Positions 21,341-55,003 of a DNA stretch of 64,000 nucleotides are shown here, piece after piece (within the stretch, counting starts at the first letter, position 1; each line of letters opens with the position of its first letter). Origin of the DNA: an uncultured Maribacter sp. (GTDB lineage: Bacteria > Bacteroidota > Bacteroidia > Flavobacteriales > Flavobacteriaceae). Below the pieces are notes generated by a model. The model was not told the DNA's origin and made no database searches. It worked only from the letters and a program-made list of their open reading frames with translations. The stretch spans positions 620,001 to 684,000 of the forward strand of contig NZ_CANMDU010000001.1 in assembly GCF_947496775.1 (NCBI RefSeq), read 5' to 3'. Made by a program: the position numbers and the translations under genes.

Positions 21341-21525
21341 AATAGTTTGTTTGATGTGATAAATGTAAGACCCGAAAGTCCTTTTTAATTAAGGGGTAAA
21401 AATATTTTATTTATTTCCTTGCTTTTATGATACTTGTCATGTTTGTTTACACCTTTATTAGGCATTACTAAAACACTTTTTTTTGTTTCTATTTTCTTTT
21501 TTTAGGTTATTTTATACTTGTTTTA

Positions 21526-29788: not shown

Positions 29789-30541
29789 CTAAGTGTCTAA
29801 ATAAAAATTATGCTCGGATATTTCCTTTTTAAGCAAATTAATATCCGGAATACCAATGCGCTTTCCTTTTGCAATAATTAAATTTTCTTTTTTCAAAGCA
29901 GATAAAACACGTATAACTTGTTCTTCAGTAGTTCCCGCATAATCGGCATATTCCTTTCTACTTAAAAAAATATTTATTACCCCATTAACTTGTCCAAATT
30001 TTCTAATCACGTACAAAAGAGTATCAATTACTCTTTCTCTTACTGTCATTTGCGATATAGATTTTACTTTAGCCTCGCTTTTATTTAATTCATTGGCATA
30101 AAAAAGCATTAAATCATAAGTAAATTTAGCATCCTTCTTTAACACCTTTTGCAATAAGTTTTTTGAAAAGTAGCACAAAATAGTATCCTCTAGGGCTATT
30201 GCCGAAATGGAATAGTACTCGGCAGTACCAAAACCCCTATGTCCAATAATTTCGCCTTCTTTTGCAAACCTTACGATTTGCTCTCTACCATTAATCCCCG
30301 TTCTAAAGACCTTTACTTTTCCCTTTAAAATAAAGAAAAGACCATTTACAGGAGCGCCCTCCATAATAAACTGCTGCCCTTTTTTACAATTTAAATCTGT
30401 TTTTTCATGAGTAAACTCAGAAACTACATCGGAAGCAATATTTTTTTTCATCAAACACCCTAAATTTTCACAAGTATGACAAGAAATACCAGACATAGAT
30501 TTCTTTTGTACTCTGTGTTCTCTTTGGGTATTATACTGCAT
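29789..30541 (-). CDS. FNR-type regulator with four candidate [4Fe-4S] cysteines
   Basis: The 250-residue Crp/Fnr protein has Cys21, Cys24 and Cys29 (CHTCENLGC) at the N-terminus and Cys123 (ILCYF), matching the spacing of E. coli FNR Cys20, 23, 29 and 122. A cyclic-nucleotide-like beta roll spans about 50-140, and the C-terminal winged helix has TTEEQVIRVLSALKK as recognition helix. The first Glu and the Arg match FNR, while the FNR Ser is Ile. It likely senses oxygen or NO and controls genes of this island. It lies 28 bp after narK on the same transcript. Confidence 0.85.
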   Translation of the reverse strand: MQYNTQREHRVQKKSMSGISCHTCENLGCLMKKNIASDVVSEFTHEKTDLNCKKGQQFIMEGAPVNGLFFILKGKVKVFRTGINGREQIVRFAKEGEIIGHRGFGTAEYYSISAIALEDTILCYFSKNLLQKVLKKDAKFTYDLMLFYANELNKSEAKVKSISQMTVRERVIDTLLYVIRKFGQVNGVINIFLSRKEYADYAGTTEEQVIRVLSALKKENLIIAKGKRIGIPDINLLKKEISEHNFYLDT

Positions 30542-39079: not shown

Positions 39080-39484
39080 AACAAGTGCAAAAGAAATATA
39101 GTCCAGAATAACAAAATTCTCAACAAAATATCTCTAGGTAAGGTAATCATAATTTTAAGGCTAATTTCTAAAGATTTTACAAATAAATATACCTATTTAA
39201 CAACGGAAGAAAGGAAAACAATCATTCTTTATATATACTACATCGTTTTCAAATAACTACAGGTGAATTCTAAAAACTGACATATGTCATAAAAGGAATG
39301 TAATTCCAGATTTACTTTTGCTGCATTATAAAAAACGAGTTTAATATTTTTAATATAGATATGTATGTGATGGCTCTATTTAGTTTCCCGTAAATAAAAC
39401 AATAGCAACACTAAACACATTATTCTAAAATCTGACGATAAACTTGTAACTTCAACAAACTATTTAAAAGGTAAATACTAAAAA
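39080..39484. other. Intergenic region before pta
   Basis: No gene seen. The promoter of pta-ackA lies here: a dyad at 39277-39290 and exact minus-7 box TACTTTTG at 39313-39320, so a transcript start near 39326 and a leader of about 160 nt. No riboswitch-like fold was recognised in the leader. Confidence 0.5.
39277..39320 (+). promoter_or_regulatory. pta promoter with FNR-type dyad at about -42
   Basis: CTGACATATGTCAT (39277-39290) is a 5-4-5 dyad; its centre is 36.5 bp before the last base of the exact minus-7 box TACTTTTG (39313-39320). The same spacing recurs at 48774, 49187, 50461 and 51564. Confidence 0.75.
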
Positions 39485-41578
39485 ATGAGTAAAGCAATAT
39501 ATATTGCCACAACAGAACCAAATAGCGGAAAATCTTTAATTTCTATCGGCCTAATGCATATGTTATTGGGAAAAGCTGCCAAAGTAGGTTATTTTAGACC
39601 TATTATCAATGACCACGCTGCTGGAGAAAAAGACAATCATATAAACACCATTTTATCATACTTTAATTTACCAATAGAGTACAAGGACTCTTTTGCTTTT
39701 ACAAGAAGTGAGGTTGTTGAAAAAAACAACCAGAATAAAGAAGATGAAGTTCTAGATACTATTATTAAAAAATACAAATCTCTAGAAGAAAAATTCGATT
39801 TTGTTCTAGTAGAAGGAACAGATTTTACCGGCGAAGGAGCAATCATAGAATGGGATATTAACGTCTTAACCGCAAAAAACTTAGGAATACCTACTATACT
39901 AGTTTCCAGTGGTGTTGGTAAAACTTTAAAAGAATTATTAGGAAACCTTAATTTAGCGTACGACTCTTTTAAAGAAAATGGAGTTAATGTACTAATGGCA
40001 GTTGCTAACAAAGTACAACCAGAAAATATTGACGTGGTTGCCACTTCTTTACAAGAGGAATTACCAGATTCTATTTTAACTGGTGTAATTCCCCTTAATC
40101 CAGTTCTTGGAAATCCAAGTATAAAAGAGATTGTAGAACAATTAGAAGGTAAGGTTCTTTTCGGAGAAAAATATATAAATAACCAAGTTGGAAATTTTGG
40201 TGTAGGCGCCATGCAACTAAGAAATTATCTTACGCATTTAAAAGAAGACGGATTAGTTATAACTCCCGGAGATAGAGCAGATATAATATTAGGCGCATTG
40301 CAAGCTAATTTATCTGTTAACTACCCTACAGTTTCGGGTATTGTTCTTACTGGTGGCTTAATGCCCGAAGATTCTATAATTAAACTTATTGAAGGCCTGT
40401 CTGATGTTGTTCCTATTATTTCTGTAAACCAAGGTACTTTTGCAATAACGAATAAGATAGGTTCCATAAAACCAAAAATATATGCAGAAAATGAACAGAA
40501 AATAACCACTTCCATTCAAAATTTTTCTAAATACATTCCTGTTAATCAATTAGAGGAAAGACTTATAACTGCAGAAGCAACTGGAATAACCCCCAGAATG
40601 TTTCAATATAACCTACTTAAAAAAGCGCAACAAGGCAAAAAGCATATTGTTTTACCAGAAGGCACAGATGAACGCGTATTAAGAGCAACAAAAGAATTAA
40701 TTGATGCTAATGTTGTTAACATCACACTTTTGGGCAATAAAGAACAAATAACAGAAAAAGTTACCAATTTAGATTTAGATCTGGATCTTTCTAAAATAAA
40801 TATAGAAGACCCAACCTTATCTATTCATTTCGAAGATTATGTGGAAACACTCTATGAGTTAAGAAAACACAAGAACTTAAACCACACCATGGCTAGAGAT
40901 TTAATGGAAGATGTTTCCTATTTTGGCACAATGATGGTTTACAAAGGGCATGCAGATGGTATGGTTTCTGGGGCGGTACATACAACACAACATACTATAA
41001 GACCAGCTTTACAATTTGTAAAAACTAGACCAGATGCACCAATTGTATCCTCTGTATTTTTTATGTGTCTTCCAGACCGTGTTACTATTTTTGGAGATTG
41101 TGCTATAAATCCTAACCCAACCGCTGAAGAATTAGCGGAAATTGCCATTTCATCCGCTACCACCAGTGCTGCTTTTGGCATAGAACCAAGAATTGCCATG
41201 TTATCTTACTCCTCTGGTTCTTCTGGAATGGGAGAAGATGTAGACCGAGTAAGGAAAGCAACAGAGATAGTAAAAGCAAAACGACCAGATTTAAAAGTGG
41301 AAGGCCCTATACAATACGATGCCGCTGTAGATATGAAAGTTGGAAAAAGTAAGCTTCCAGATTCTGAAGTTGCCGGCCAAGCAACCGTATTTATTTTCCC
41401 TGATTTAAATACTGGTAACAATACATACAAAGCCGTGCAAAGAGAAACTGGAGCTTTGGCCATTGGTCCAATGCTGCAAGGATTAAACAAACCAGTAAAT
41501 GACCTAAGTCGAGGGTGTACTGTCGATGATATTTTTAATACTGTAATAATTACTGCTATTCAATCTAATGGCATTTAA
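39485..41578 (+). CDS. pta: Phosphate acetyltransferase, three-domain type
   Basis: The 697-residue protein has an N-terminal P-loop-like domain (ATTEPNSGKSLISIGL), a central DRTGG domain (about 210-320) and the catalytic PTA_PTB domain from about residue 370 (KHIVLPEGTDERVLRA, SSGSSGMGEDVDRV, EGPIQYDAAVDMKVG). It converts acetyl-CoA to acetyl phosphate. AckA begins 15 bp after it. The FNR-type dyad upstream suggests induction at low oxygen. Confidence 0.95.
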   Translation: MSKAIYIATTEPNSGKSLISIGLMHMLLGKAAKVGYFRPIINDHAAGEKDNHINTILSYFNLPIEYKDSFAFTRSEVVEKNNQNKEDEVLDTIIKKYKSLEEKFDFVLVEGTDFTGEGAIIEWDINVLTAKNLGIPTILVSSGVGKTLKELLGNLNLAYDSFKENGVNVLMAVANKVQPENIDVVATSLQEELPDSILTGVIPLNPVLGNPSIKEIVEQLEGKVLFGEKYINNQVGNFGVGAMQLRNYLTHLKEDGLVITPGDRADIILGALQANLSVNYPTVSGIVLTGGLMPEDSIIKLIEGLSDVVPIISVNQGTFAITNKIGSIKPKIYAENEQKITTSIQNFSKYIPVNQLEERLITAEATGITPRMFQYNLLKKAQQGKKHIVLPEGTDERVLRATKELIDANVVNITLLGNKEQITEKVTNLDLDLDLSKINIEDPTLSIHFEDYVETLYELRKHKNLNHTMARDLMEDVSYFGTMMVYKGHADGMVSGAVHTTQHTIRPALQFVKTRPDAPIVSSVFFMCLPDRVTIFGDCAINPNPTAEELAEIAISSATTSAAFGIEPRIAMLSYSSGSSGMGEDVDRVRKATEIVKAKRPDLKVEGPIQYDAAVDMKVGKSKLPDSEVAGQATVFIFPDLNTGNNTYKAVQRETGALAIGPMLQGLNKPVNDLSRGCTVDDIFNTVIITAIQSNGI

Positions 41579-41593
41579 AAAACTCTTTTCCAT

Positions 41594-42787
41594 ATGAATG
41601 TTTTTATACTTAACGCTGGTAGTTCTTCTATTAAATACCAACTAATACGCATGCCGTCTGAAGATGTAATATGCCAAGGTATTGTAGAACGTATCGGAGA
41701 AAATGATGCTATACTAAAATACAAAACAGATAAGGTTTCTTTAGAAGATATTATCGAAATTAAGAACCATAAGGATGGGCTTAAAATGGTAGCTAACTTA
41801 TTAATGGATAAGCAGAACGGAGTTATTAAAAATACTTCTGACATTACTGTTGTTGGTCATAGAGTTGTACATGGCGGAAACACTTTTTCTGATACTACAT
41901 TAATAACAGATGAAGTAAAAGCAAAAATTGAAGAGCTTTCTAAACTAGCTCCATTACATAATCCTGCAAATTTACAAGGCATTGTTTTAGCAGAACAAAT
42001 TTTCACAGAAGCTAAACAGGTAGCGATTTTCGATACAGCGTTTCATCAAACTCTGCCCATTATAGCTCGTAAATACGCTATTCCTAATAAACTCTTCGAT
42101 GAGCACGGAATTCAAACCTACGGTTTTCATGGAACAAGTCATAAATATGTTTCGGAAGAAGCTAATGCATTTTTAAGGAAAGAAAATTCCAAAATAATTA
42201 CCATACACTTAGGAAATGGATGTAGCATTACAGCTGTAGATAATGGAAAAAGCGTAGATACCAGTTTAGGGTTTACACCAGGCAATGGTCTTATCATGGG
42301 AACCAGAAGTGGCGATATAGACCACAGCCTTATCTTTTATTTAGTAGATACTTTGGGCTACACAATGGAACATGTAAATAAAATGCTATTAAAAGAAAGT
42401 GGCATGATAGGACTTACAGGTTATAGTGACTTAAGAGATATTGAAAGAGAGGCTAATAATGGCAACGCAGATTGCCAGTTAGCATTGGAAATGAATACCT
42501 ATAGAATAAAAAAATACATAGGAGCATACGTCGCAGTTATGAACGGATTAGATGCTATAGTATTTACAGCTGGTATAGGAGAAAACTCAAATACCATTCG
42601 AAAAATGGTTTGTTCTAATATGGATTTCTTAGGCATACAGTTAGATATAGAAAAGAACAATATTCGTCCAAAAAAGCTAGAAGAAATTAATACGAATACT
42701 TCTAAGGTGAAAATTTTTATTATTCCGACTAACGAAGAATTAGAGATTGCCAAACAAGCACATGTATTAATAAAAAAAACGAATTAA
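41594..42787 (+). CDS. ackA: Acetate kinase
   Basis: The 397-residue protein has NAGSSSIKYQLI at the start, VVGHRVVHGGNTF (about 86-98), FDTAFHQTLP, TYGFHGTSHKYV, IHLGNGCSITA and VFTAGIGENS, all conserved in acetate kinases. It makes ATP and acetate from acetyl phosphate, completing overflow or fermentation energy conservation with Pta. The pair shares the promoter at 39277-39320. Confidence 0.96.
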   Translation: MNVFILNAGSSSIKYQLIRMPSEDVICQGIVERIGENDAILKYKTDKVSLEDIIEIKNHKDGLKMVANLLMDKQNGVIKNTSDITVVGHRVVHGGNTFSDTTLITDEVKAKIEELSKLAPLHNPANLQGIVLAEQIFTEAKQVAIFDTAFHQTLPIIARKYAIPNKLFDEHGIQTYGFHGTSHKYVSEEANAFLRKENSKIITIHLGNGCSITAVDNGKSVDTSLGFTPGNGLIMGTRSGDIDHSLIFYLVDTLGYTMEHVNKMLLKESGMIGLTGYSDLRDIEREANNGNADCQLALEMNTYRIKKYIGAYVAVMNGLDAIVFTAGIGENSNTIRKMVCSNMDFLGIQLDIEKNNIRPKKLEEINTNTSKVKIFIIPTNEELEIAKQAHVLIKKTN

Positions 42788-43103
42788 TGATTTATATAAA
42801 ACATTAATTATGACTTTTTAAAAAAGTGAGGTTATTTTTTGCACAATTTTTGCGCATTTTTAACTTTTAGATGATGGTTTTACCTTCTTTTTTTGCCAAA
42901 AAGGTCGTTTTTTCTTAATTAGTAAGAAGTTACCTACGCAAAATAAAATCTTCTCCATAAGTAATTTTTATATTGCACTTTATTAAATACTAAACCTAAT
43001 GTCACGTTCGTTGAACTGTAATAATTACGCTTTAATAAAGTTACATATTACATTTCTTGGTGTGGTTACTTAAACTTTCTGGCTTTAAACTAGAGCATCT
43101 ATT
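42788..43103. other. Intergenic region between ackA and response regulator
   Basis: About 316 bp with no gene. It has T-rich runs shortly after ackA (near 42830 and 42900) that may end the transcript but no perfect hairpin. A GTAATAATTAC palindrome lies near 43018. Confidence 0.35.
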
Positions 43104-43766
43104 TTGAAACTTATACTAAAGATTTTAATGGTCGATGACCATCCCCTAACCCTTCGCGGTTACGAGCTATCATTAAATGAATATAGTGATAGGTATATTT
43201 TTGAATTCCATAAGGCAAATGATAGTGCTCAAGCGCTTAAACTAATAGAACAAAATGAACCCAATTTTTTTCATATCATATTTCTAGATATAAGATTACC
43301 TGTTAGCAATAAAAACTCTTTAATAAATGGAGAAGAGCTTGGTGTTAAAATTAAAAAAACAATTACTTCGAAAATTATTGTTTTAAGTTCTATAAGCGAT
43401 ACCCAACGAATATATAGTATCCTTAGTAATCTAGAACCAAATGCTTTTATTATAAAGACAGAAGCAACGCCAGAGCTTTTGTTAGAAGCCATAGACCATG
43501 TGTTATTCGATAAAGAATATTATAGTCCAAAAATTAAAAAGCTCATTAGTATTCAAAACTCAGAACACCCTGCTCTAGATATATATGACATTAAAATTTT
43601 ATATTTTTTATCCGTTGGAGAGAAAATGAAGAACTTACCAGATTACGTACACCTATCTATTGCCAGCATAGAGAGAAGAAAAAAGAAAATAAAGGCCTAT
43701 TTTGGTAATAATTACGCCACGGATAGAGAGCTTATAGAAACTGCAATAAAAAAAGGATATATTTAG
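43104..43766 (+). CDS. Orphan response regulator with atypical C-terminal helix-turn-helix
   Basis: The 220-residue protein has a receiver domain: KILMVDDHPLTLRGYELSLN, phospho-acceptor Asp62 in IIFLDIRLP, IIVLSSI and FIIKTEA with the conserved Lys. The C-terminal domain (about 155-220, KILYFLSVGEKMKNLPDYV, SIASIERRKKKIKAYFG) resembles a LuxR-type HTH but diverges in the turn. Start is TTG 43104; the next ATG (43128) would cut the first strand. No kinase gene is adjacent. Such regulators occur widely in Flavobacteriia; target unknown. Confidence 0.72.
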   Translation: MKLILKILMVDDHPLTLRGYELSLNEYSDRYIFEFHKANDSAQALKLIEQNEPNFFHIIFLDIRLPVSNKNSLINGEELGVKIKKTITSKIIVLSSISDTQRIYSILSNLEPNAFIIKTEATPELLLEAIDHVLFDKEYYSPKIKKLISIQNSEHPALDIYDIKILYFLSVGEKMKNLPDYVHLSIASIERRKKKIKAYFGNNYATDRELIETAIKKGYI

Positions 43767-44011
43767 TTAAAACAACCTTACATTACTAATTATCTAGAAC
43801 AACTTTCTCCTCTTTTTTTACACCCAACTTCATTAAGATTATCTCTAATAAACACCATTTAGTAAAAGCAGATTATATTAAATTACCTCTGTAGTAACTA
43901 GAGTTGTTTTTTGAAAAACCCCAAATAAAGAAATTCCGAAAAGTGATAAAAATACGATATCGTAACCATTATTACCTATGAAAATAATCTTATAACCGGA
44001 GAATTACAGCA

Positions 44012-44665
44012 TTACAATTTACCGCCATAAGACAAATCTCCTGAATCCCCTAAACCTGGTATTATATAACCCTTATTATTAAGCTCAGCATCTATATCTG
44101 CAATCCAAAGATGCGTGTTTTCCGGAAATACATTCTTAATAAACTCAACACCTTCTTGGGAACCTATAACCGCGACAATATGAATTTGTTTTGGCACACC
44201 ATGAGATTCTAGTGCATTTAAAACATTTTCTAGAGTTCTTCCTGTTGCTAGCATAGGATCTGCTAAGATTAAGGTTTTCTTTTCTATAGAAGGTGCCGCT
44301 AAATACTTTACTATAACGTCAAAATTATCTTGCCCATTTGGGTGATGCCTATATGCCGAAATAAAGGCATTTTCTGCATCATCAAAATAATTTAATATGC
44401 CTTGATGCAATGGTAAGCCTGCACGCATAATGGAACAAAGAACCAATTTATCCATTATCTGAGTTGTCTTTTTGATTCCTAAAGGAGTTTCTACTTCAGC
44501 GGTATTAAAGTGCAATGTTTTACTAAGTTCGTAACTCAATATTTCTCCTATGCGCTCGATATTTCTTCGGAAACGCATACTATCTTTTTGAATTTTAATA
44601 TCTCTAATTTCAGCAATAAACCTTTTTAAAACCGAATTTTCAGATGCTAAATGGTGAATATTCAT
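44012..44665 (-). CDS. upp: Uracil phosphoribosyltransferase
   Basis: The 217-residue protein matches UPRTase: RNIERIGEILSYELSK, the PRPP loop ILADPMLATGRTLENVLNAL (about 133-152), VAVIGSQEGVEF and DAELNNKGYIIPGLGDSGD at the end (uracil site). It salvages uracil to UMP. A strong hairpin with a T-run stands 70-95 bp upstream on the same strand. Confidence 0.93.
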   Translation of the reverse strand: MNIHHLASENSVLKRFIAEIRDIKIQKDSMRFRRNIERIGEILSYELSKTLHFNTAEVETPLGIKKTTQIMDKLVLCSIMRAGLPLHQGILNYFDDAENAFISAYRHHPNGQDNFDVIVKYLAAPSIEKKTLILADPMLATGRTLENVLNALESHGVPKQIHIVAVIGSQEGVEFIKNVFPENTHLWIADIDAELNNKGYIIPGLGDSGDLSYGGKL

Positions 44666-44727
44666 AGAGTATAAAATTTCTTCTACTAATTTACAGTATT
44701 AAAACGGCACCAAATAAAAATCTACAC

Positions 44728-44760
44728 TAAAAAAAGGCACTTTTGTCCCCAAAAGTGCCT
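44728..44760 (-). terminator. Intrinsic terminator upstream of upp
   Basis: Perfect 11-bp stem AGGCACTTTTG/CAAAAGTGCCT with a 4-nt loop (44735-44760), followed on the minus strand by seven T. No annotated gene ends here; the nearest candidate transcript is the 18-codon frame at 44773-44829, or the upp leader itself. Confidence 0.8.
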
Positions 44761-44772
44761 AACATCTACCAA

Positions 44773-44829
44773 TCAATCAAAACTAATCAAATCACTAATT
44801 AGCTTACTTTTCTTAACCTTAAAAGCCAT
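44773..44829 (-). CDS. Possible 18-residue peptide gene before the upp hairpin
   Basis: ATG-to-TGA frame encoding MAFKVKKSKLISDLISFD, basic at its N-terminus, ending 13 bp before the terminator hairpin. The upstream sequence is A-rich, as is usual for ribosome binding in this phylum. A TAGTTTTG minus-7 box (44785-44778) lies inside it on the same strand, which could mean instead that upp is transcribed from there and the frame is accidental. Low certainty. Confidence 0.3.
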   Translation of the reverse strand: MAFKVKKSKLISDLISFD

Positions 44830-45032
44830 TGTATTTTACTATTGTTATTTAAAAATTTAAATTACCATAATACCAATTGAACAACAATGATAAATATCAT
44901 TTGGCAATTTGTTCTAGTCTCACAAGGACCACCTTAACACATTGTTTTACAGTTAATTTTGTAACGCAGTTCTTATGTCTAATAGAAATAGAAGTTTATT
45001 AACGTTATATAACTTATTTTTGAAAACAAACT
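44830..45032. other. Intergenic region before the YdjM-like gene
   Basis: No gene recognised. The 14-bp palindrome-like GTTAATTTTGTAAC is at 44952-44965; it has no minus-7 box at the spacing seen at the other dyads. Confidence 0.3.
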
Positions 45033-46031
45033 ATGGACTCACTTACCCAAATTGTATTAGGCGCAGCAGTTGGCGAAGCTGTTTTAGGAACAAAAATTGG
45101 AAATAAAGCTATGCTCTATGGAGCCATTGCTGGTACTATTCCAGATTTAGACGTATTTGCTTCTCATTTTACAGATACGGTATCGGCCTTAGAAATTCAT
45201 CGCGGATTTACACATTCCATAGTATTTTCTGTACTTTTTGCTCCCATTTTTGGCTGGTTGGTTTCTAGATATGAAAAATATAAAAACGTAAAAGGTTGGT
45301 CATGGCTATTCTTTTGGGCCTTTATTACCCATCCAATTTTAGATGCGCATACTACTTGGGGAACACAATTATTTTGGCCTTTAGATTTACGTTTAGCCTT
45401 TAAGAACATATTTGTAATTGACCCTCTATATACGCTGCCGTTTTTAATATTTTTAATACTAACCATGTGGCAAAAGCGTTCCACAAAAAAGCGCCGTTTT
45501 TATAATAAAATGGGGCTTTTGGTAAGTTCCGGCTATTTGTTACTTACTCTTGTATTAAAATGGATAGCATATAATCAATTTAAATCTGCCTTAGAGATTC
45601 AAAATATAGATTATCTACAATTAGACGCAAGACCTTCTGCACTCAACACTATTCTTTGGAGCGCTAATATTGAAACCGAAAACACTTATTTATTAGGCAA
45701 TTATTCCTTTTTTGATACCAAGCCAATAACTTTTGAAACCTATCCTAAAAACCATCATCTTGTAACAGGTTTTATTGATGACACTAATATGCAACGCATG
45801 ATAGCTATTTCTGAAGGATGGTATTCTATTAGTAAAAAAGAAGAAAATCTATATTTTAATGATTTAAGATTTGGGCTTTTAAGTTTAGAACCTAACTCTC
45901 AGGATTTTGTATTTAAATATCGAATACATTTGGCTAGTAACGGTACAATACAATTTACCGAAGTTCCTAAAGCCCCTAAAGATGGGAGAAAATTACTTCT
46001 AGATTTATGGTCGCGGCTAAAAGGAAACTAA
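45033..46031 (+). CDS. YdjM-type membrane metal-dependent hydrolase (DUF457)
   Basis: The 332-residue protein begins MDSLTQIVLGAAVGEAVLG, then GAIAGTIPDLDVF (about 30-42), IHRGFTHSIVF and FITHPILDAHTTWGTQLF (about 100-117). His and Asp residues in these segments form the metal site of the DUF457/YdjM family. Four to five hydrophobic helices anchor it to the inner membrane; a 130-residue soluble tail follows. Substrate unknown. It ends in a 4-bp overlap with the convergent next gene. Confidence 0.85.
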   Translation: MDSLTQIVLGAAVGEAVLGTKIGNKAMLYGAIAGTIPDLDVFASHFTDTVSALEIHRGFTHSIVFSVLFAPIFGWLVSRYEKYKNVKGWSWLFFWAFITHPILDAHTTWGTQLFWPLDLRLAFKNIFVIDPLYTLPFLIFLILTMWQKRSTKKRRFYNKMGLLVSSGYLLLTLVLKWIAYNQFKSALEIQNIDYLQLDARPSALNTILWSANIETENTYLLGNYSFFDTKPITFETYPKNHHLVTGFIDDTNMQRMIAISEGWYSISKKEENLYFNDLRFGLLSLEPNSQDFVFKYRIHLASNGTIQFTEVPKAPKDGRKLLLDLWSRLKGN

Positions 46032-46321
46032 TTCAATTTATTTTTAATCACTTTTGCCAAAACTAAACCTAAAGCCCCTCCAATTGCTGAGACCACTATA
46101 TTTATACAAAGAAGTAAGCCTTCAAAATCTCCGTTGTTCATTATATACCAAGGACTAAACCCTAATCTACCAAAAGATTTAATTAAAAACACACTACCAA
46201 AAACACCTACAATAGTATTACCGATCATTCCAAAGGAATATTTTTTATACATAAACCCAATACTATTTGCAGCAACTATCCCAATTAGAATACTGATTAG
46301 TGATATTAAGGTCCCTGTCAT
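46028..46321 (-). CDS. GlsB/YeaQ/YmgE-like small membrane protein
   Basis: The 97-residue protein has three hydrophobic helices (about 4-24, 31-47, 68-92) and the family's glycine-rich pattern GMIGNTIVGVFGSVF. The family is often stress-induced with unclear function. It is 14 bp downstream of cydB on the same strand and may be the third gene of the cyd transcript; its stop overlaps the convergent YdjM-like gene. Confidence 0.65.
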   Translation of the reverse strand: MTGTLISLISILIGIVAANSIGFMYKKYSFGMIGNTIVGVFGSVFLIKSFGRLGFSPWYIMNNGDFEGLLLCINIVVSAIGGALGLVLAKVIKNKLN

Positions 46322-46335
46322 ACTAGTGCCGTAAA

Positions 46336-47409
46336 CTAATGCCCGTAATCCATATTATCTATCTTCCCTCCCATTAGTCTTTTTTGAATAATCATGTAAA
46401 CAAAAAGAAGAACAAAGCCTATTATTCCCCAATTTAAAGCAACAGACAAACCGTACTCTGATGTTGCTGTATTATATATAGTTAAAGGTTCATTAATTGT
46501 ATTAATAGAGGGCAACAACACTGGAAATAAAGAGGCTAAAGAAGATGTAATTCCCCCCACTATTAGCAAGGTAGACAATATAAATCCATGTACGTCTTTT
46601 TTCATTTTTTTAATAAAAAACAATCCTATTAATCCTGTCACATAAACAATAGGGAATAGTATTAGATAAGGTTTTTCAGAAAAATTATCAAAACAATTTG
46701 GGTTTACTGTTTGCCATATCAGTAATGAAAATATGGTTAATGCGGCTAATACGATGTTTAAATTAAAAATGACTCTTTTAAGCTTTGCGTTTATCGACGA
46801 ATTTGTTTTTAAAATTATCCAATTAGCGCCGTGAATAGCCAAGGTTACTACAGATATTAAACCTATAATAATCGTAAACCAATCTATTACTCCAGGAGTT
46901 TTGCTTAAAGGACTAAAGCTACTATCCCATAGAGGTAAGAAAAAATAATGTGCTTCATATTCAGAAATTCCATTTTCAACACCGCCTAAATTTACTCCTC
47001 TAACAACATTACCCAAAGCAATACCAAAAAATAAGGCTAATAATAAACTAGAAACTCCAAAAGAGGCATCCCAAATATCTTTCCACATTTGAAACTTAAA
47101 TTGGCTTCTAAACTCTAATCCAATAGCTCTAAAAATAATTAACCACAATACGATTATTAACGGCAAGTAAAAGCCACTAAAAACAGATGCATAAAAGGTT
47201 GGAAAAGCCATAAAAAGCATTCCCCCTGCTGCCACAAGCCATACCTCATTAGAATCCCAAAATAACCCTGCAGATTTAGCAATTACTTCTTTGTCTTTTT
47301 CTTCTTTCGCCAAAAACAAATGAATTATTCCTGTGCCAAAATCATAACCATCCAAAATAAAAAAAACCGCTAGAACGATAGCAATTGATAGATACCAAAA
47401 TATTTCCAT
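46336..47409 (-). CDS. cydB: Cytochrome bd ubiquinol oxidase subunit II
   Basis: The 357-residue protein has eight to nine helices and the CydB landmarks FILDGYDFGTGIIHLF (about 17-32), GLFWDSNEVWLVAAGGMLFMAFP and FRAIGLEFR (about 90-102). With CydA it forms the high-affinity terminal oxidase. Three bp after cydA. Confidence 0.94.
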   Translation of the reverse strand: MEIFWYLSIAIVLAVFFILDGYDFGTGIIHLFLAKEEKDKEVIAKSAGLFWDSNEVWLVAAGGMLFMAFPTFYASVFSGFYLPLIIVLWLIIFRAIGLEFRSQFKFQMWKDIWDASFGVSSLLLALFFGIALGNVVRGVNLGGVENGISEYEAHYFFLPLWDSSFSPLSKTPGVIDWFTIIIGLISVVTLAIHGANWIILKTNSSINAKLKRVIFNLNIVLAALTIFSLLIWQTVNPNCFDNFSEKPYLILFPIVYVTGLIGLFFIKKMKKDVHGFILSTLLIVGGITSSLASLFPVLLPSINTINEPLTIYNTATSEYGLSVALNWGIIGFVLLFVYMIIQKRLMGGKIDNMDYGH

Positions 47410-47412
47410 AAT

Positions 47413-48744
47413 TTAATGCGTTTTATGTTTTGGGCCTTCGTTAATAGTTTTACCAACTAGGACTAAAAATAATAATCCTAGCAACATGTATAATGCAACA
47501 AAACCAAGTAAAGTAAATAAGGTGTTCCCAGAAGATACGGTTGGAGAAATTCCTTCACTGGTCCGTAGCAAACCATATACTAAATATGGCTGTCTTCCTA
47601 ATTCCGCTGTATACCATCCTGTAAGATTAGCTATATAAGGAAAAGGGACTAAAAACATTATAGTCCATAATAATGGTTTTAATGTGTATAATTTTTTTCT
47701 CCACAAAAAGAAAAGTGCCAATGCCATAACACCTATAAAAATCGTTCCTAAACCAACCATAATATGATAGGAGTAGTAGAGTGCAGGAATATTATCTGGT
47801 AGCTCTTCCTTTTTAAACTTATCCATTCCTGGAATTTGTCTATCCCATTCTTGATAGGTTAAAAAACTTAATATATTCGGAACTGCAATTTTGTTATCCA
47901 ATTTTTTTTCTACCATGTTTGGCTGACCGATGAGAACAATTTCTGCTCCAGCCTCTTCTGTTTCAAAAATTCCTTCCATAGCAGCAAAAGATGCTGGTTG
48001 GTATTTTGCCACATTTTTAGCGTTCCAATCTCCTGTTGGAAAAGCAACCAATAAACTAGAAACTAATCCGAATACTACCCCCGTTTTTAAAAACAGTTTT
48101 CCGTATTCTATTTGTTTATTTCGTAAAATATAAAAAGCACCAATACTGGCAACAACAAAAGAAGATGTTACCACAGATGCTAACTGGTTATGTAAAAAAG
48201 CAGGTAAAAGCCATGGGTTACTGAATAATGCCGAAAAATTCTCTAATACATATTTACCATTATCCAAAATTTCGTATCCCACCGGATGCTGCATCCAAGC
48301 ATTGGTTGACAAAATAAACCAGCCACTTGCCCAAGAACCTAAAAACACTAAAAAGCCAGTTAAAAAGTGTAGTTTTTGCCCCATTAGTTTTTCTCCAAAA
48401 ATAAACAGTGCTAAAAAAGACGATTCTAAAAAGAAAGAGAACATACCTTCCATGGCTAGGGTCTGACCAATAATTCCGCCCGTAAGCTCCGAATATTTAG
48501 CCCAATTGGTTCCAAATTGAAATTCCATTGGAATTCCCGTAACCACGCCCATAGTAAAATTAACTGCAAAAATTTTCATGAAAAACTTTGCTGCGTCGTT
48601 ATATTTTTCAATTTTATTTAGTAAATATTTCCCTTTAAAATAGACTATCAGAAGGGATAATCCCATGGTTAATTGCGGGAATATATAATGAAATGTGATA
48701 GTAAAAGCAAATTGCAATCTATCATAAAAAAGCATGTCTTCCAT
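47413..48744 (-). CDS. cydA: Cytochrome bd ubiquinol oxidase subunit I
   Basis: The 443-residue protein has nine helices with haem ligands: His in FTITFHYIFPQLTMG (near residue 19), AVNFTMGVVTGIPMEFQFGTNW, and Met/His further on; the GRQPYLVYGLLRT sequence after a short Q-loop. The short Q-loop class fits other Bacteroidota. Start ATG 48744 is preferred over an unlikely TTG 48789. A degenerate dyad GTAAGAAGGCTGAC (48804-48817) lies 36.5 bp from the last base of TACTTTTA (48781-48774). Confidence 0.94.
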   Translation of the reverse strand: MEDMLFYDRLQFAFTITFHYIFPQLTMGLSLLIVYFKGKYLLNKIEKYNDAAKFFMKIFAVNFTMGVVTGIPMEFQFGTNWAKYSELTGGIIGQTLAMEGMFSFFLESSFLALFIFGEKLMGQKLHFLTGFLVFLGSWASGWFILSTNAWMQHPVGYEILDNGKYVLENFSALFSNPWLLPAFLHNQLASVVTSSFVVASIGAFYILRNKQIEYGKLFLKTGVVFGLVSSLLVAFPTGDWNAKNVAKYQPASFAAMEGIFETEEAGAEIVLIGQPNMVEKKLDNKIAVPNILSFLTYQEWDRQIPGMDKFKKEELPDNIPALYYSYHIMVGLGTIFIGVMALALFFLWRKKLYTLKPLLWTIMFLVPFPYIANLTGWYTAELGRQPYLVYGLLRTSEGISPTVSSGNTLFTLLGFVALYMLLGLLFLVLVGKTINEGPKHKTH

Positions 48745-48773
48745 ACTAAAGAAATTTATATAAAAATCATTCT

Positions 48774-48817
48774 TAAAAGTAGTACGCAAGTTAGTTCATA
48801 ATTGTAAGAAGGCTGAC
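48774..48817 (-). promoter_or_regulatory. cydA promoter with degenerate FNR-type dyad
   Basis: GTAAGAAGGCTGAC (48804-48817) fits GTRAC-N4-GTYAC at seven of ten positions, and the minus-7 box TACTTTTA fits at seven of eight. The spacing is identical (36.5) to the four clearer promoters, which is why it is reported. Confidence 0.45.
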
Positions 48818-48823
48818 TTTAGA

Positions 48824-48858
48824 ACTAAAAAAAAGAGGAAACATTTTGTTACCTCTTT
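48824..48858 (-). terminator. Terminator after the YgaP-like gene
   Basis: Stem AAAGAGG/CCTCTTT extended by AACA/TGTT across one mismatch, followed on the minus strand by eight T. It separates the DUF2892 gene from cydAB. Confidence 0.8.
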
Positions 48859-48916
48859 AACAATTAAAATTCATTACTTAATAGAAATTCTAAAAATGAG
48901 AACAACTTATTAGTTC

Positions 48917-49129
48917 TTATTTTTTACCTCCTATTTTACAACTATTTATACCCAATATACTGTATATAGGACAAAAACTTATAAAGCTTGTAAAAACAAA
49001 AATTACAGCTAATCCTAAAAGGATATATGCCAAAGTACCACCAATGACATCTGTTAAATACAGTGTTAAAACAATTCCTGCGATAATAAAACGAATAATA
49101 CGATCTGAGCCGCCCATATTTTTTTCCAT
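48917..49129 (-). CDS. DUF2892 (YgaP-like) membrane protein
   Basis: The 70-residue protein has KNMGGSDRIIRFIIAGIVL at its start and two helices, then FISFCPIYSILGINSCK; this is the DUF2892 membrane half of YgaP without the rhodanese domain. A rhodanese is encoded separately at 49966, so the two together may rebuild YgaP. It is preceded by a dyad at 49217-49230. Confidence 0.82.
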   Translation of the reverse strand: MEKNMGGSDRIIRFIIAGIVLTLYLTDVIGGTLAYILLGLAVIFVFTSFISFCPIYSILGINSCKIGGKK

Positions 49130-49186
49130 ATTATAGAATTTAAATAACGTCTTTTAAAAAGACATTCATTATACATTTTTCTACAG

Positions 49187-49230
49187 CAAAACTAGCTTTC
49201 CTGTTTACAAAAAGCTGTGACATATGTTAC
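49187..49230 (-). promoter_or_regulatory. DUF2892 gene promoter with FNR-type dyad
   Basis: GTGACATATGTTAC (49217-49230) with the exact minus-7 box TAGTTTTG on the minus strand (49194-49187); centre-to-box distance 36.5 bp, as at pta. Confidence 0.75.
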
Positions 49231-49250
49231 AAGGCACTGTATTAAAAAAA

Positions 49251-49886
49251 CTAATCTACTAGTTGAATTAATCCTTGCTTTAAAAGCAAATATCCTTCTC
49301 TTTCTAATTTCTTTAATAATCTGGAAATAACTTCACGAGAAGAACCCAATTCTTTTGCAATTTGCTGATGGGTACTTTGTATTTTTTTGGATTTATGAAG
49401 CGTTGCTTCTTTCTGGAGATATTCTAGCAAAAGACGATCTTTATTGGAAAAAGTTAATACTTCTACCATATGTAAAAGCTCATCGAACTTTAAATTAAAC
49501 AGGTCATAAAAAAATTCATTCCACTTAGGATAGTTCCTTGCCATTTTCAAGGCTCTTTCTGCTGGTATAATTACTATTTCAGCATCTTTTTCTACAATTG
49601 CCTTTACCTTACTAATTTCATCCTTTACTAAAGTGGTCATAGACATTACGCAACTCTCCCCTGGTTCTATATAATAAAGAAGTACTTCTCCTCCAGTTTC
49701 ATCTTCTTTAAAAATTTTAACCAAGCCCGAAACCAAAAATGGAATAACTTTGATATAGGTGCCAGATTTAAGAATTACATCACCCTTTTTTATTTGTACT
49801 AGCTCGCTACTCCGTACTATTTCTTCTTTTAACTGAGGATTCTTTGCTAAGTGAGGAAAATGGTGTTCTATAATTGTTTGAAGCAT
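49251..49886 (-). CDS. Crp/Fnr family regulator
   Basis: The 211-residue protein has a cyclic-nucleotide-like beta roll (KGDVILKSGTYIKVIPFLVSGLVKIF, about 33-58) with a long dimer helix and a C-terminal winged helix: STHQQIAKELGSSREVISRLLKKLEREG. The recognition helix keeps the Glu, Ser and Arg of FNR (E-V-I-S-R). There is no N-terminal Cys cluster. It lies 79 bp after the rhodanese gene and may be in the same transcript. Confidence 0.85.
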   Translation of the reverse strand: MLQTIIEHHFPHLAKNPQLKEEIVRSSELVQIKKGDVILKSGTYIKVIPFLVSGLVKIFKEDETGGEVLLYYIEPGESCVMSMTTLVKDEISKVKAIVEKDAEIVIIPAERALKMARNYPKWNEFFYDLFNLKFDELLHMVEVLTFSNKDRLLLEYLQKEATLHKSKKIQSTHQQIAKELGSSREVISRLLKKLEREGYLLLKQGLIQLVD

Positions 49887-49965
49887 TCGTCTTTTTTATA
49901 AAAATAAAAAAAGGTTATTCAAAAATCTTAATTTTTAGAAAGGAAAATTATCTAAAACTTTAAGT

Positions 49966-50307
49966 CTACCACTTGGAATACCCTCCTTGTAAATCATATA
50001 TTTCCTTAAAGCCCATGTCTACTAACTTATGTGCCGCTTTTCTACTACGAGCACCAGAGCGACAATACAGGTAAACAGGTTTAGATATGTCCAATTTTTC
50101 AAAATAAGATACAAAAGTATCAGATTTAAAAAAATCGACATTAACTGCATTTCCAATATGTCCATTGGTAAACTCATTAGGGGTACGAACATCTATCAAT
50201 TGCACTTTTTTATTAGAAATAGCAGATGAAAAAGCAGATTTGTTTAAAACTTTTATACTATCCGAATAATCTTTTTTTCGTCCAAATATGTTAGTTAAAA
50301 ATGACAT
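49966..50307 (-). CDS. Rhodanese-domain protein
   Basis: The 113-residue protein has the rhodanese fold: VQLIDVRTPNEFTNGHIGNAVNV, then active site loop CRSGARSRKAAH (Cys at about residue 83) and LQGGYSKW at the end. It transfers sulfane sulphur. It is flanked by regulators and a YgaP-like gene and is preceded by a dyad at 50491-50504. Confidence 0.88.
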   Translation of the reverse strand: MSFLTNIFGRKKDYSDSIKVLNKSAFSSAISNKKVQLIDVRTPNEFTNGHIGNAVNVDFFKSDTFVSYFEKLDISKPVYLYCRSGARSRKAAHKLVDMGFKEIYDLQGGYSKW

Positions 50308-50460
50308 ATATTTTTATTTAAGAGTAAAAACCAAAGTACATTACTTCGGCTCTAAAGTATTTAAATTTCAATTCTTTAGTAAAGGAAACGGTTATTAAGT
50401 GTCACAACCGCTTCCTTAAACAACCAACCGTAAAAATATAGTAACACTATATCCTTATAA

Positions 50461-50504
50461 CAAAAATAATCTGGGTTATTCTAAGAAACAGTAACTAATG
50501 TTAC
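50461..50504 (-). promoter_or_regulatory. Rhodanese gene promoter with FNR-type dyad
   Basis: GTAACTAATGTTAC (50491-50504) with the exact minus-7 box TATTTTTG on the minus strand (50468-50461), distance 36.5 bp. The leader to the start codon is about 150 nt. Confidence 0.75.
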
Positions 50505-50516
50505 ATAGAGCGAATA

Positions 50517-51149
50517 TTATAAATCTATAAGGCGAATATTATTTCTATTCAGTTCTATTTTACCCATATTTTCTAGTTTTTTAAGAAGTCTAGAGACTAC
50601 AACTCTAGAAGTATGAAGTTCATATGCAATTTCTTGATGGGTATTATGAATAGTATTATTATGAGTTACTCTTGCCTTGTCATTAAGGTATTTAAGCAAA
50701 CGCTCATCCATTTTAAAAAAAGCAATACTATCCACTGTTTCCATGACCTCATTTAAACGATTATGGTAACTATCTAATACGAAACCTCGCCAACTAGAAT
50801 AGTTAGACATCCATTCTTCCATTTTTTGAACAGGTATCATTATGAGCTTTGTATTAGTTTCTGCAATTGCACGAATTTGACTCTTAGACTGTCCTACACA
50901 ACAGCTTAATGTCATGGCACAGGTGTCTCCGTTTTCTAAAAAATATAGTAGTAATTCATCGCCATCTTTATCTTCTCTTAAAATCTTAACCACCCCTGAG
51001 ACTAAAAGCGGCATAGATTTAATATAATCACCTATCTCTATTATTTTAAATCCTTCTGGAATTTCCTTAAAGGTAGCTACTTGATTTATCTCATTGATTA
51101 AATCTTCCTCAAAAACATGTCCGTAGCTTTCCTTTAATTCTTGAATCAT
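50517..51149 (-). CDS. Crp/Fnr family regulator
   Basis: The 210-residue protein is related to the one at 49251 (both have IPVQKMEEWM or similar and end with ISRLL/VSRLLKKLE). Beta roll about 20-110; recognition helix HTSRVVVSRLLKKLENMG, where the FNR Glu is Val while Ser-Arg remain. There is a CCVG pair near residue 83 but no FNR-type cluster. Its ATG directly abuts the stop of the DUF983 gene (51150), so it is co-transcribed with it from the promoter at 51564. Confidence 0.85.
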   Translation of the reverse strand: MIQELKESYGHVFEEDLINEINQVATFKEIPEGFKIIEIGDYIKSMPLLVSGVVKILREDKDGDELLLYFLENGDTCAMTLSCCVGQSKSQIRAIAETNTKLIMIPVQKMEEWMSNYSSWRGFVLDSYHNRLNEVMETVDSIAFFKMDERLLKYLNDKARVTHNNTIHNTHQEIAYELHTSRVVVSRLLKKLENMGKIELNRNNIRLIDL

Positions 51150-51548
51150 TTAGGTTCTTATTTTTACTTTACGAGCCATACTCTTATCAAATTTAAAAAA
51201 AATATTAGCCCAAATAGATTTTGAAACTGCTCCAATGTATGGCATAGATATAACTAACCCTACAATAATGCTTATAAAAATTTCGAAAAGGCTGAACCCT
51301 AGTCCTAATAGTTGAGTTAAAGCATAAACAGCTACAGCCACAGCAATACCAACTCCGTAAGAAACATACATAGAACCGTAATAAAAGCTAGGTTCAATAC
51401 TATATTTTAAATTACAACTCGGGCAATTCTTTTTTACTTTGTTAAACTTATTAAGTTTATAAGGATTTGCTTCTAAAAAAGCTCCCTCATGACACCTAGG
51501 ACATTTTAAAAATAAAATACTATACAATTTTGTTTCCCTAAAAGACAT
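51150..51548 (-). CDS. DUF983 membrane protein
   Basis: The protein starts MSFRETKLYSILFLKCPRCHEGAF with a CPRC zinc-ribbon pair followed by CPSC near residue 43, then three helices (about 60-80, 84-108, 115-130). The DUF983 family is found near cytochrome oxidase genes, function unclear. An upstream in-frame TTG (51566) is less likely than ATG 51548. Operon with the Crp/Fnr gene. Confidence 0.82.
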   Translation of the reverse strand: MSFRETKLYSILFLKCPRCHEGAFLEANPYKLNKFNKVKKNCPSCNLKYSIEPSFYYGSMYVSYGVGIAVAVAVYALTQLLGLGFSLFEIFISIIVGLVISMPYIGAVSKSIWANIFFKFDKSMARKVKIRT

Positions 51549-51563
51549 GCCATTTTTTATATG

Positions 51564-51607
51564 CAAAAGTAATAGAATGATTAAAGGGTATCAGTAACAA
51601 AAGTTAC
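51564..51607 (-). promoter_or_regulatory. DUF983-crp promoter with FNR-type dyad
   Basis: GTAACAAAAGTTAC (51594-51607), a perfect dyad, with the exact minus-7 box TACTTTTG on the minus strand (51571-51564), distance 36.5 bp. Expected start about 51558, placing the dyad centre near -42.5, the class II position of Crp/Fnr activators. Confidence 0.8.
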
Positions 51608-53522: not shown

Positions 53523-54221
53523 TTATACTATATTTAAAGCAATTTCTATCATTTCGGAAAAAGAAGTTTCTCTATCTGATGAGGAGGAGCTCTCCCCAGT
53601 AACTAAAGAGTCGGAAATAGTTAAAATCGCAAGTGCCTGAATATTGAATTTTGCTGCCAAAGTGTATAACCCAGCCGCCTCCATTTCTACACAAAGAACG
53701 CCATAATCTGCCCATTTTTTGTAGTCGTCAGGATTATCTCCATAAAATTCATCTGAAGAAAGTACATTCCCAGCTTTTACCTCAATGCCATTTGCTTTTG
53801 CATAATTTACGGCATTTAACAAAAGTTCAAAACTAGCGGTTGGCGAAAAATCGGCATTTACAAATCGCGTATTATTTATTCCAGATGTAGTAGATGCAGA
53901 CATAGCTATAACAATATCTCTCAGTTTTACTTCTTTTTGATACGATCCCGCGGACCCTACCCTAATTATATTTTTAACATTATAATTAGTTATCAGTTCA
54001 TGATAATATATCATGGCAGAAGGGATACCCATACCACTACCTTGTACAGATATTCTTTTACCCTTATATGTTCCTGTAAAACCAAGCATACCGCGAACCT
54101 GATTATAACACATTACATCTTCTAAATAAGTCTCTGCTATCCATTTTGCTCTTAAGGGATCCCCTGGCATTAATACGGTTTCTGCAATTTGTCCTTTCTC
54201 TGCCGAAATATGTACGCTCAT
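53523..54221 (-). CDS. deoD: Purine-nucleoside phosphorylase (DeoD type)
   Basis: The 232-residue protein has [29 protein letters not shown] at the start (phosphate site), [10 protein letters not shown] (about 83-92), [14 protein letters not shown] (ribose contact) and [10 protein letters not shown]. It splits purine nucleosides and deoxynucleosides. 6 bp after deoC, with which it forms a deoxyribonucleoside salvage operon. Confidence 0.94.
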
Positions 54222-54227
54222 AATTTA

Positions 54228-54884
54228 TTATTTAGTAGAAACTATTGCTATTCCAGAGGAAGTACCTATTCTAGAAACCCCTAATTTTATATACTCTAAA
54301 GCTGTTTCTTTATCCCTAACACCACCAGAAGCTTTGATCTTAACGGTATCACCAACAATAGACTTCATTAATTGAACATCCTCTAAGGTAGCACCTCCCG
54401 AACCAAATCCTGTTGACGTTTTTACAAAATCTGCCCCTGCATCCATTGCCAAATTGGTAGCTTCCTTTTTTTCTACCGTAGTTAAAAAGCAGGTTTCAAT
54501 AATTACTTTCAATACAGTATCACCAATAGCTTGTTTTATTCGCTCAATTTCCGCCCTAACAAAATCTGTATTTCCTGATTTTAATTGACCAACATTAATA
54601 ACCATATCTATTTCATCCGCACCAGAAGCCACACACTCTTTAGCTTCATATACTTTTGCTTTCGTAGACATTGCCCCTAATGGAAAACCAATAACTGCCG
54701 CTAATTTAACTCTGCTATTTTGCAATTCTTTTTTAGCAATGGCTACAAAACTTCCATTAATACAGACGGCATAAAAATTATAATCTATTGCTTCTTTACA
54801 GAGGTTTTTAATATCTAAAACCGTAGCCATTGGTTTTAAATTGGTATGATCTATATAATCTTGAAGTTGTAACTTGTCTGTCAA
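54228..54884 (-). CDS. deoC: Deoxyribose-phosphate aldolase
   Basis: The 218-residue protein has YIDHTNLKPMAT at the start, VIGFPLGAM (about 65-73), EIDMVINVG, the Schiff-base Lys in DFVKTSTGFG (about 152), and KASGGVRD. It splits 2-deoxyribose 5-phosphate to glyceraldehyde 3-phosphate and acetaldehyde. Operon with deoD. Confidence 0.95.
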   Translation of the reverse strand: MTDKLQLQDYIDHTNLKPMATVLDIKNLCKEAIDYNFYAVCINGSFVAIAKKELQNSRVKLAAVIGFPLGAMSTKAKVYEAKECVASGADEIDMVINVGQLKSGNTDFVRAEIERIKQAIGDTVLKVIIETCFLTTVEKKEATNLAMDAGADFVKTSTGFGSGGATLEDVQLMKSIVGDTVKIKASGGVRDKETALEYIKLGVSRIGTSSGIAIVSTK

Positions 54885-55003
54885 ACCGAATTATTTTAAT
54901 AGTTATTTTAAAAAAAATACTATCAAAGATAACAGGAGTAAGGATAAATTTATATGACAACAGTCATTAAACTAATATAGGTCTTCTTACCCAATCTTAA
55001 TTA

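Follow-up and report, generated by a model that had tools for sequence, protein, structure and literature searches.

The window analysed here is a 64,000-nucleotide stretch of an uncultured Maribacter sp. (contig NZ_CANMDU010000001.1, positions 620,001 to 684,000), in which several promoters carry a 5-4-5 dyad of the Crp/Fnr type at a fixed distance from a TAnnTTTG −7 box. Two regulators of the Crp/Fnr family probably share this class II geometry. The protein encoded at 50517..51149 (50517) is with good, though not full, confidence a sulfide-responsive activator acting at GTAAC-N4-GTTAC dyads, and an Fnr-like protein encoded outside the window beside a ccoI-like gene would serve dyads of the TGAC-N4-GTCA class. 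An initial annotation of this DNA had assigned five promoters to one dyad, GTRAC-N4-GTYAC, and to one low-oxygen regulon.

Each site consists of the dyad, a gap of 22 bp and the −7 box, equivalent to 36.5 bp from the dyad centre to the last base of the box. All five dyads and boxes of the initial annotation lie where it placed them. Perfect TAnnTTTG boxes follow the pta, YgaP-like, rhodanese and DUF983-crp dyads at exactly this distance, and the copy before cydA is degenerate, as it had been described, with three mismatches in the dyad at 48804 and the box TACTTTTA. The single consensus holds in part: the dyads at 49217, 50491 and 51594 fully match GTRAC-N4-GTYAC, and the pta dyad at 39277 departs from it at two positions. 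As this motif was derived from the window's own sites, the weight of the analysis rests on tests in other DNA. The features of the cluster containing 50517 are:

51594..51607, minus strand: dyad GTAACTTTTGTTAC, class II site of the DUF983-crp operon; likely autoregulation
51564..51571, minus strand: −7 box TACTTTTG, 22 bp behind the 51594 dyad
51150..51548, minus strand: DUF983 gene (PF06170), the first gene of the operon
50517..51149, minus strand: Crp-family regulator with Cys77, Cys83 and Cys84, and with Arg182-Val183 at CRP positions 180/181; candidate activator at GTAAC-N4-GTTAC
50491..50504, minus strand: dyad GTAACATTAGTTAC, class II site of the rhodanese gene
50461..50468, minus strand: −7 box TATTTTTG of the rhodanese promoter
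49966..50307, minus strand: rhodanese, a single-domain sulfurtransferase (PF00581)
49251..49886, minus strand: second Crp-family paralogue, with Arg-Glu at CRP 180/181 and one Cys (GESC)
49217..49230, minus strand: hybrid dyad GTAACATATGTCAC with one GTAAC and one GTGAC half, class II site of the YgaP-like gene
49187..49194, minus strand: −7 box TAGTTTTG of the YgaP-like promoter
48917..49129, minus strand: YgaP-like transmembrane protein of 70 amino acids (PF11127)

The TAnnTTTG box of F. psychrophilum occupies −12 to −5 (PMC9723704, in part). Combined with the 22-bp gap, this would centre the dyads at −41.5, in agreement with the class II position proposed for them earlier. The spacing is very unlikely to be a product of composition. 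With up to two mismatches in the dyad and an exact box, gap 22 accounts for five sites in the window and the rest of the range from 0 to 79 for a single one; 200 dinucleotide shuffles of the window gave at most two sites at any gap. Across the genome, 50 of the 53 occurrences of RTRAC-N4-GTYAY were examined, and six, all located outside open reading frames (ORFs), are followed by an exact TAnnTTTG at gap 22; gaps of 34, 35, 50 and 51 gave one match each. The exact dyad GTRAC-N4-GTYAC occurs 11 times, with TAnnTTTR at gap 22 for all five occurrences outside ORFs (of at least 60 amino acids) and for none of the six inside. These five are the three window sites and two further ones, L001 and L008, which both precede an MBL-fold rhodanese gene, the family having been read on a homologue.

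The same geometry is conserved in relatives. A profile of the 50517-type Crp was used to fetch 80 loci of up to 20 kb (1.54 Mb in total) from records titled as Bacteroidota genera or groups, mostly Flavobacteriaceae. They contain 504 oriented GTAAC-N4-GTTAC dyads (252 places), of which 120 hold an exact TAnnTTTG box at gap 22; elsewhere the count never exceeds two per gap. Unrelated dyads of equivalent design, used as controls, gave no exact box at gap 22 in these loci, and TGAC-type dyads gave two to four. The spacers of the 120 sites comprise 117 distinct sequences (mean pairwise identity 31%; 101 clusters at 16 or more of 22 positions), indicating that the length of the gap is kept while its letters drift. 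With one mismatch allowed in the box there are 258 class II sites, at least one in each of the 80 loci. In 166 of these the box ends in G and in 91 in A, a count made with that mismatch permitted, and boxes of the form TAnnTTTA, such as that of cydA, therefore appear acceptable. In five relatives (L052-L056) both neighbouring promoters retain an exact dyad at the same 22-bp gap: the DUF983 box is exact in three and has one mismatch in two, and the rhodanese box is TAnnTTTA in each. Two less selected samples were also taken. Among 29 loci fetched with a hidden Markov model (HMM) rather than by motif (13 outside Flavobacteriaceae; L299 from a genome already sampled), exact boxes occur nine times at gap 22, twice at 21 and once at 76. 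The Crp gene has a GTRAC class II site in its vicinity, the box having no more than one mismatch, in 14 of these 29 loci and in 17 of 30 loci fetched by similarity.

A downstream gene was assigned for 230 of the 258 sites. Rhodanese-domain proteins stand behind 79 sites (at least 54 with an MBL-rhodanese signature, eight single-domain). TauE/SafE proteins stand behind 44, DUF983 behind 14, Sulf_transp behind 13, the Crp gene itself and an SQR-like flavoprotein behind 11 each, fatty-acid-hydroxylase-like proteins behind nine, Tll0287-like behind eight, peroxiredoxin behind seven, and SulP and YgaP-like proteins behind six each. Among the smaller groups are sulfite-dehydrogenase-like proteins, SoxA/TsdA-like cytochromes c and a two-member cluster with cydA. 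One representative served for each family assignment; for DUF983 and YgaP-like it was the protein of the window itself. The SQR-like, persulfide-dioxygenase-like and sulfur-transport genes that follow class II sites take their names from Pfam or from NCBIfam similarity below the cut-offs, the latter applying to the dioxygenase, SQR and sulfite-dehydrogenase names. From these annotations the GTAAC-N4-GTTAC sites appear to belong mainly to sulfur genes. At L059, L060 and L062, small Cys-x2-Cys-His proteins, cytochrome c-like by eye, were also seen behind GTAAC class II sites.

The protein 50517 is a member of the Crp/Fnr superfamily, scoring 39.6 bits for PF00027 and 36.7 bits for PF13545, both above the cut-offs. 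Its AlphaFold model, computed as a single chain, has a predicted local confidence (pLDDT) of 86 and a predicted template modelling score (pTM) of 0.62, with pLDDT values of 68–75 around the cysteines, and its top PDB match by E-value is 3dv8 (Foldseek E 6e-15). Cys77, Cys83 and Cys84 fall in the segment equivalent to the CRP phosphate-binding cassette, which in CRP includes Glu72 and Arg82. The three cysteines are retained in 80 of 80 pattern-fetched loci and the Arg-Val pair in 79, partly as a result of the selection. In the 30 similarity-fetched loci (the window's own included) the first cysteine is kept in all, the full set in 26 and Arg-Val in 29; in the HMM-fetched set, the full set is kept in 28 of 29 and the first in every locus. 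A cAMP-dependent CRP was rejected as an identity for 50517, as NF008732 scored 59.3 bits against an equivalog cut-off of 266 and an ungapped alignment by eye places Met79 and Lys89 at the Glu72 and Arg82 positions. An FNR-type 4Fe-4S sensor was also rejected, since the protein has no N-terminal cysteine cluster and its cysteines are Cys77, Cys83 and Cys84 only. With sulfide and persulfide genes as the targets, a thiol or persulfide switch would be the likeliest mechanism. The profile of this type of Crp matches 104 of 296 sampled genomes at 1e-40, not all of which need be 50517-type.

The genome encodes four proteins that score above the HTH_Crp_2 cut-off, and an alignment by eye gives their residues at CRP 180/181 as Arg-Glu (49251), Arg-Val (50517), Glu-Glu (29789) and Thr-Glu (the Fnr-like protein, C1:601768-602454). 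These two positions have been tied to the bases of the dyad, Ser or Pro at 180 going with TTGAC (PMC1274295, in part). NtcA also aligns with Arg-Val at these positions, and it reads GTA-N8-TAC at about −41.5 (PMC3898017, in part), which provides an independent fit of 50517 to GTAAC-N4-GTTAC. A Crp-like protein with Pro-Glu (L087, L296, C5:150380-150493) adjoins TTGACAATAGTCAA with the exact box TAAATTTG at the class II gap, the outcome predicted by the 2005 recognition code. A testable code is suggested in which Arg-Val goes with GTAAC, Thr-Glu with (A/C)TGAC and Pro-Glu with TTGAC. The cases available to check it are few: among four Arg-Glu loci, a GTAAC-type site is present in none and a GTGAC-type site in one, and among 25 Arg-Val loci in 14 and one, respectively. 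Together with its location beside the sites, these residues support 50517, one of the three Crp/Fnr candidates in the initial annotation, as the probable activator at the promoters of rhodanese, the YgaP-like gene and DUF983-crp.

The Arg-Glu paralogue 49251 is probably in the same operon as the rhodanese gene, downstream of it. An 84% identical copy was found only in G006 of 60 genomes searched, the next best being 41% identical or less. GTGAC half-sites make up five of 16 sites in the five loci with such a paralogue (the window's 49217-49230 site, L126, L136, L149 and L157, mostly hybrid GTAAC/GTGAC dyads) compared with 19 of 242 in the other loci (p 0.0099 by Fisher's test, the sites not being independent). 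Seven sites with two GTGAC halves lie in loci where no Arg-Glu paralogue was seen, paralogues having been sought inside the fetched loci, and the Arg-Glu locus L078 (2.3 kb) contains no GTRAC dyad. A link between GTGAC half-sites and the Arg-Glu paralogue is thus suggestive only, and the hybrid dyads could possibly be read by a heterodimer.

The second class of sites has TGAC-N4-GTCA dyads and goes with the Fnr-like protein, which is encoded about 18 kb outside the window next to a gene named ccoI-like from its sequence. Its representatives in the window are:

39277..39290, plus strand: dyad CTGACATATGTCAT, TGAC-N4-GTCA (Fnr-type), class II site of pta-ackA
39313..39320, plus strand: −7 box TACTTTTG of the pta promoter
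39485-41578, plus strand: pta (PF01515)
41594-42787, plus strand: ackA (PF00871)
54954..54967, minus strand: Fnr-type dyad ATGACTGTTGTCAT, absent from the initial annotation, class II site of deoC-deoD
54924-54931, minus strand: exact box TATCTTTG, 22 bp behind the 54954 dyad
54228-54884, minus strand: deoC, behind the 54954 site
53523-54221, minus strand: deoD, behind the same site

TGAC-N4-GTCA occurs 14 times in the genome, with TAnnTTTR at the class II gap in seven cases: pta, deoC, methylmalonyl-CoA-epimerase-like, universal-stress-like and NmrA-like genes, and the sites L294 and L296. Poorer boxes precede nadA-like (one mismatch) and phosphoenolpyruvate-carboxykinase-like (two mismatches) genes; names other than pta and deoC are protein readings, not family calls. 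The fnr locus carries two class II TGAC-type sites (at most one mismatch, often TGAT on one side) in eight of eight genomes of the genus. One of the two precedes fnr itself; the gene behind the second, read in the window's own genome, is the neighbouring universal-stress-like gene. At least one class II TGAC-type site was found in 14 of 30 Fnr loci, and no GTAAC-N4-GTTAC dyad was found in any of the 30. This association makes a low-oxygen role plausible for pta and deoC-deoD. For pta, 27 of 28 loci were examined (the partial match L225 was left out), and a site of the same type and gap is present in G006, G024 and G026 (L199, L205 and L207), and with two mismatches in G001 and G003. At L294 (C2:84732-84743) a TGAC-N4-GTCA dyad is flanked on either side by the exact box TAATTTTG with the class II gap, and it could therefore drive divergent genes. 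A possible weak Fnr-type site, ATGACAAGTATCAT at 21427-21440 on the minus strand with the box TATTTTTA at gap 22, precedes an alginate-export-like gene in the window.

The features of the cydA promoter and of cydAB in the window are:

48804..48817, minus strand: degenerate dyad GTCAGCCTTCTTAC before cydA, three mismatches; doubtful here, better preserved in G006
48774-48781, minus strand: box TACTTTTA of the cydA site
47413..48744, minus strand: cydA (PF01654)
46336-47409, minus strand: cydB (PF02322)

Of 29 cydA loci, 25 were examined, the four most distant (L194-L197) being left out. In the nearest relative, G006, GTAATAAAAGTTAC-N22-TACTTTTA stands before cydA with one mismatch and ends 18 bp ahead of the gene. 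By alignment it is not clearly at the same position as the window's site, the distance from box to ATG being 18 against 29 bp. One-mismatch class II sites precede cydA in G021 and G022, and an exact dyad precedes it in L111 (Cellulophaga baltica); in G008 and G033 the dyad is exact but no box follows at gap 22, and six of seven same-genus genomes have no class II site before cydA. Taken together, the sites in G006, G021, G022 and L111 suggest that cydA may join the GTAAC rather than the Fnr class; its membership is likely in some genomes and doubtful in the window's own. Cytochrome bd is known to tolerate sulfide, so its genes would fit well among those that answer to sulfide.

The proposed mechanism is as follows. 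Dimers of the Crp/Fnr family would bind 5-4-5 dyads centred at −41.5, 22 bp ahead of a TAnnTTTR box, and activate transcription from the class II position. Through its Arg-Val pair, 50517 would bind GTAAC-N4-GTTAC and activate its own operon together with rhodanese, YgaP-like and persulfide-dioxygenase-like genes. It would respond to sulfide, most likely by persulfide or polysulfide chemistry on Cys77, Cys83 and Cys84, placed where cAMP-type Crps hold their ligand. The ccoI-linked Fnr-like protein, with Thr-Glu, would bind (A/C)TGAC-N4-GTCAT at pta-ackA, deoC-deoD, its own promoter and the universal-stress gene. A bolder proposal, tentative and at somewhat short of even chances, is that 50517 represents a widespread Bacteroidota branch of Crp in which the cAMP pocket has become a cysteine trap sensing persulfide or polysulfide. 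This branch would activate sulfide-oxidation genes, and in some genomes the bd oxidase, from −41.5 at GTAAC-N4-GTTAC, and where an Arg-Glu paralogue is present a heterodimer may read hybrid dyads.

Several observations weigh against the assignment of the GTAAC class to a sulfide-responsive 50517 and of the TGAC class to the Fnr-like protein. The geometry, its conservation, the target genes and the association of each dyad with a regulator locus are read from sequence, and from them we infer DNA binding by 50517 and the Fnr-like protein, activation and the effectors. The fetch of the 80 loci used peptide patterns including the Arg-Val helix and GDTC, so that the counts from that set arise partly by construction, and the 14 of 29 and 17 of 30 in the less selected loci (about 3.6 kb) mean that many of these have no site nearby. 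One or both of the Cys pair are missing in L066, L073, L074, L076 and L314. The fatty-acid-hydroxylase, Tll0287-like, TolC and DUF983 targets have no obvious sulfur role, and most of the 27 pta loci examined have no class II site. The dyads alone are not enriched: GTAACN4GTTAC occurs 10 times genome-wide against six for its reversed control and is rarer than that control in many relatives, and TGACN4GTCA occurs 14 times against 15 in the own genome. For this reason only the combination of dyad and gap was used as a test; the signal is the dyad plus its spacing, not the dyad by itself.

This lack of excess over the reversed control is what a chance or compositional coincidence would predict. 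Such an origin is nevertheless vanishingly unlikely, as none of the 200 shuffles reached four sites at one gap, the gap profile contradicts it and the 22-bp gap is fixed in 120 sites with 117 different spacers. The single low-oxygen regulon, in which one FNR-type protein would act through one dyad on pta-ackA, cydAB and the rhodanese and YgaP-like genes, draws on the geometry common to all the sites and on the GTAAC-type cydA sites of G006, G021, G022 and L111. Moreover, cydA and pta are often oxygen-regulated in other organisms. It is nonetheless improbable, because the half-sites divide by class, with pta of the TGAC-N4-GTCA type and the 30 Fnr loci devoid of GTAAC-N4-GTTAC, because the GTAAC-class targets are mainly sulfur genes, and because 50517 lacks the FNR-type N-terminal cysteine cluster. 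One dyad for all five promoters and one regulon are therefore not supported; low-oxygen control is plausible for pta and deoC-deoD.

A general thiol or oxidant sensor like PgRsp of Porphyromonas, with the sulfur genes forming part of a redox response, would accommodate the cysteine-rich pocket of 50517 and the seven peroxiredoxin sites. PgRsp is a redox-linked Crp/Fnr protein of the same phylum whose model was built on a Crp homologue from E. rectale (PMC6955866, in part), and the best fold match of 50517, 3dv8, is likewise an E. rectale Crp/Fnr entry. However, sulfide, persulfide, sulfite and sulfur-transport genes dominate the targets and PgRsp binds haem, so that this identity for 50517 is unlikely. 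An HcpR-type nitrosative-stress regulon is far less credible still, even though the published HcpR2 consensus, GTAACnnnnGTTAC, is identical to that of the 50517-class sites (PMC1274295, in part). Residue 181 of 50517 is Val as opposed to the Pro reported for HcpR2, no hcp was recognised among the target groups, which differ from those of HcpR2, and a search of the genome (99.76% complete according to its table) for PF03063 gave no match, while its control matched five of 14 genomes.

A sulfide-responsive 50517 would resemble NtcA of cyanobacteria in its Arg-Val residues, the outer bases of its dyad and its class II position (PMC3898017, in part). It differs in that NtcA answers to 2-oxoglutarate and nitrogen status, the targets of 50517 are mainly sulfur genes, and the three cysteines in the ligand-cassette region belong to 50517. 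The 5-4-5 dyad and class II position are shared with E. coli FNR and Bacteroidota Fnr-like proteins; TGAC half-sites occur before pta, deoC, fnr and the universal-stress gene, but this class goes with the ccoI-linked C1:601768 and not with 50517. Cur/BT4338 of Bacteroides is also a Crp-family activator from the Bacteroidota, but has the motif wwwTATGTTnTAnAACATAwww and sugar genes as its targets (PMC3878776 and PMC6989115, both in part).

Sulfide-oxidation and sulfurtransferase genes are controlled by SqrR/BigR, CstR and FisR. Persulfide-responsive regulators capture reactive sulfur as di- to tetrasulfide bonds on their cysteines; for 50517 the sequences show conserved cysteines. Cysteine sensing (PMC9774590, in part) would be common to these regulators, of the ArsR, CsoR and sigma-54 types respectively, and to 50517; SqrR, BigR and CstR are repressors, FisR works with sigma-54 and the families are unrelated, whereas 50517 is a candidate class II activator of the Crp family. 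Among the persulfide sensors SqrR/BigR, CstR, PigS and FisR, none is of the Crp family in the available part of PMC9774590. In the open-licence literature, among the matches listed and as far as the accessible parts of these go, no Bacteroidota regulon for sulfide or persulfide under a Crp-family protein was described. The present data point to a Crp-type switch that would turn on sulfur detoxification in marine flavobacteria. If this is true, a Crp-family activator with similar targets would be the flavobacteria's own sulfide switch, and the fixed 22-bp gap to TAnnTTTR would make the regulons of this group predictable from sequence.

The remaining Crp/Fnr protein named by the initial annotation, 29789 (29789-30541, minus strand), is not supported as a controller of these sites, since no link to them was found and it lies in a nitrate-assimilation cluster. 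It has an N-terminal Cys-x2-Cys-x4-Cys and globin, MFS and nitrite-reductase-like genes as neighbours, and may regulate nitrate assimilation separately, as an Fnr-like protein. Finally, in L089-L168, 12 of 210 oriented occurrences of the dyad TGAT-N4-ATCA are followed by an exact box at the class II gap, where other gaps average 0.13; this may be a third type of dyad that shares the geometry.

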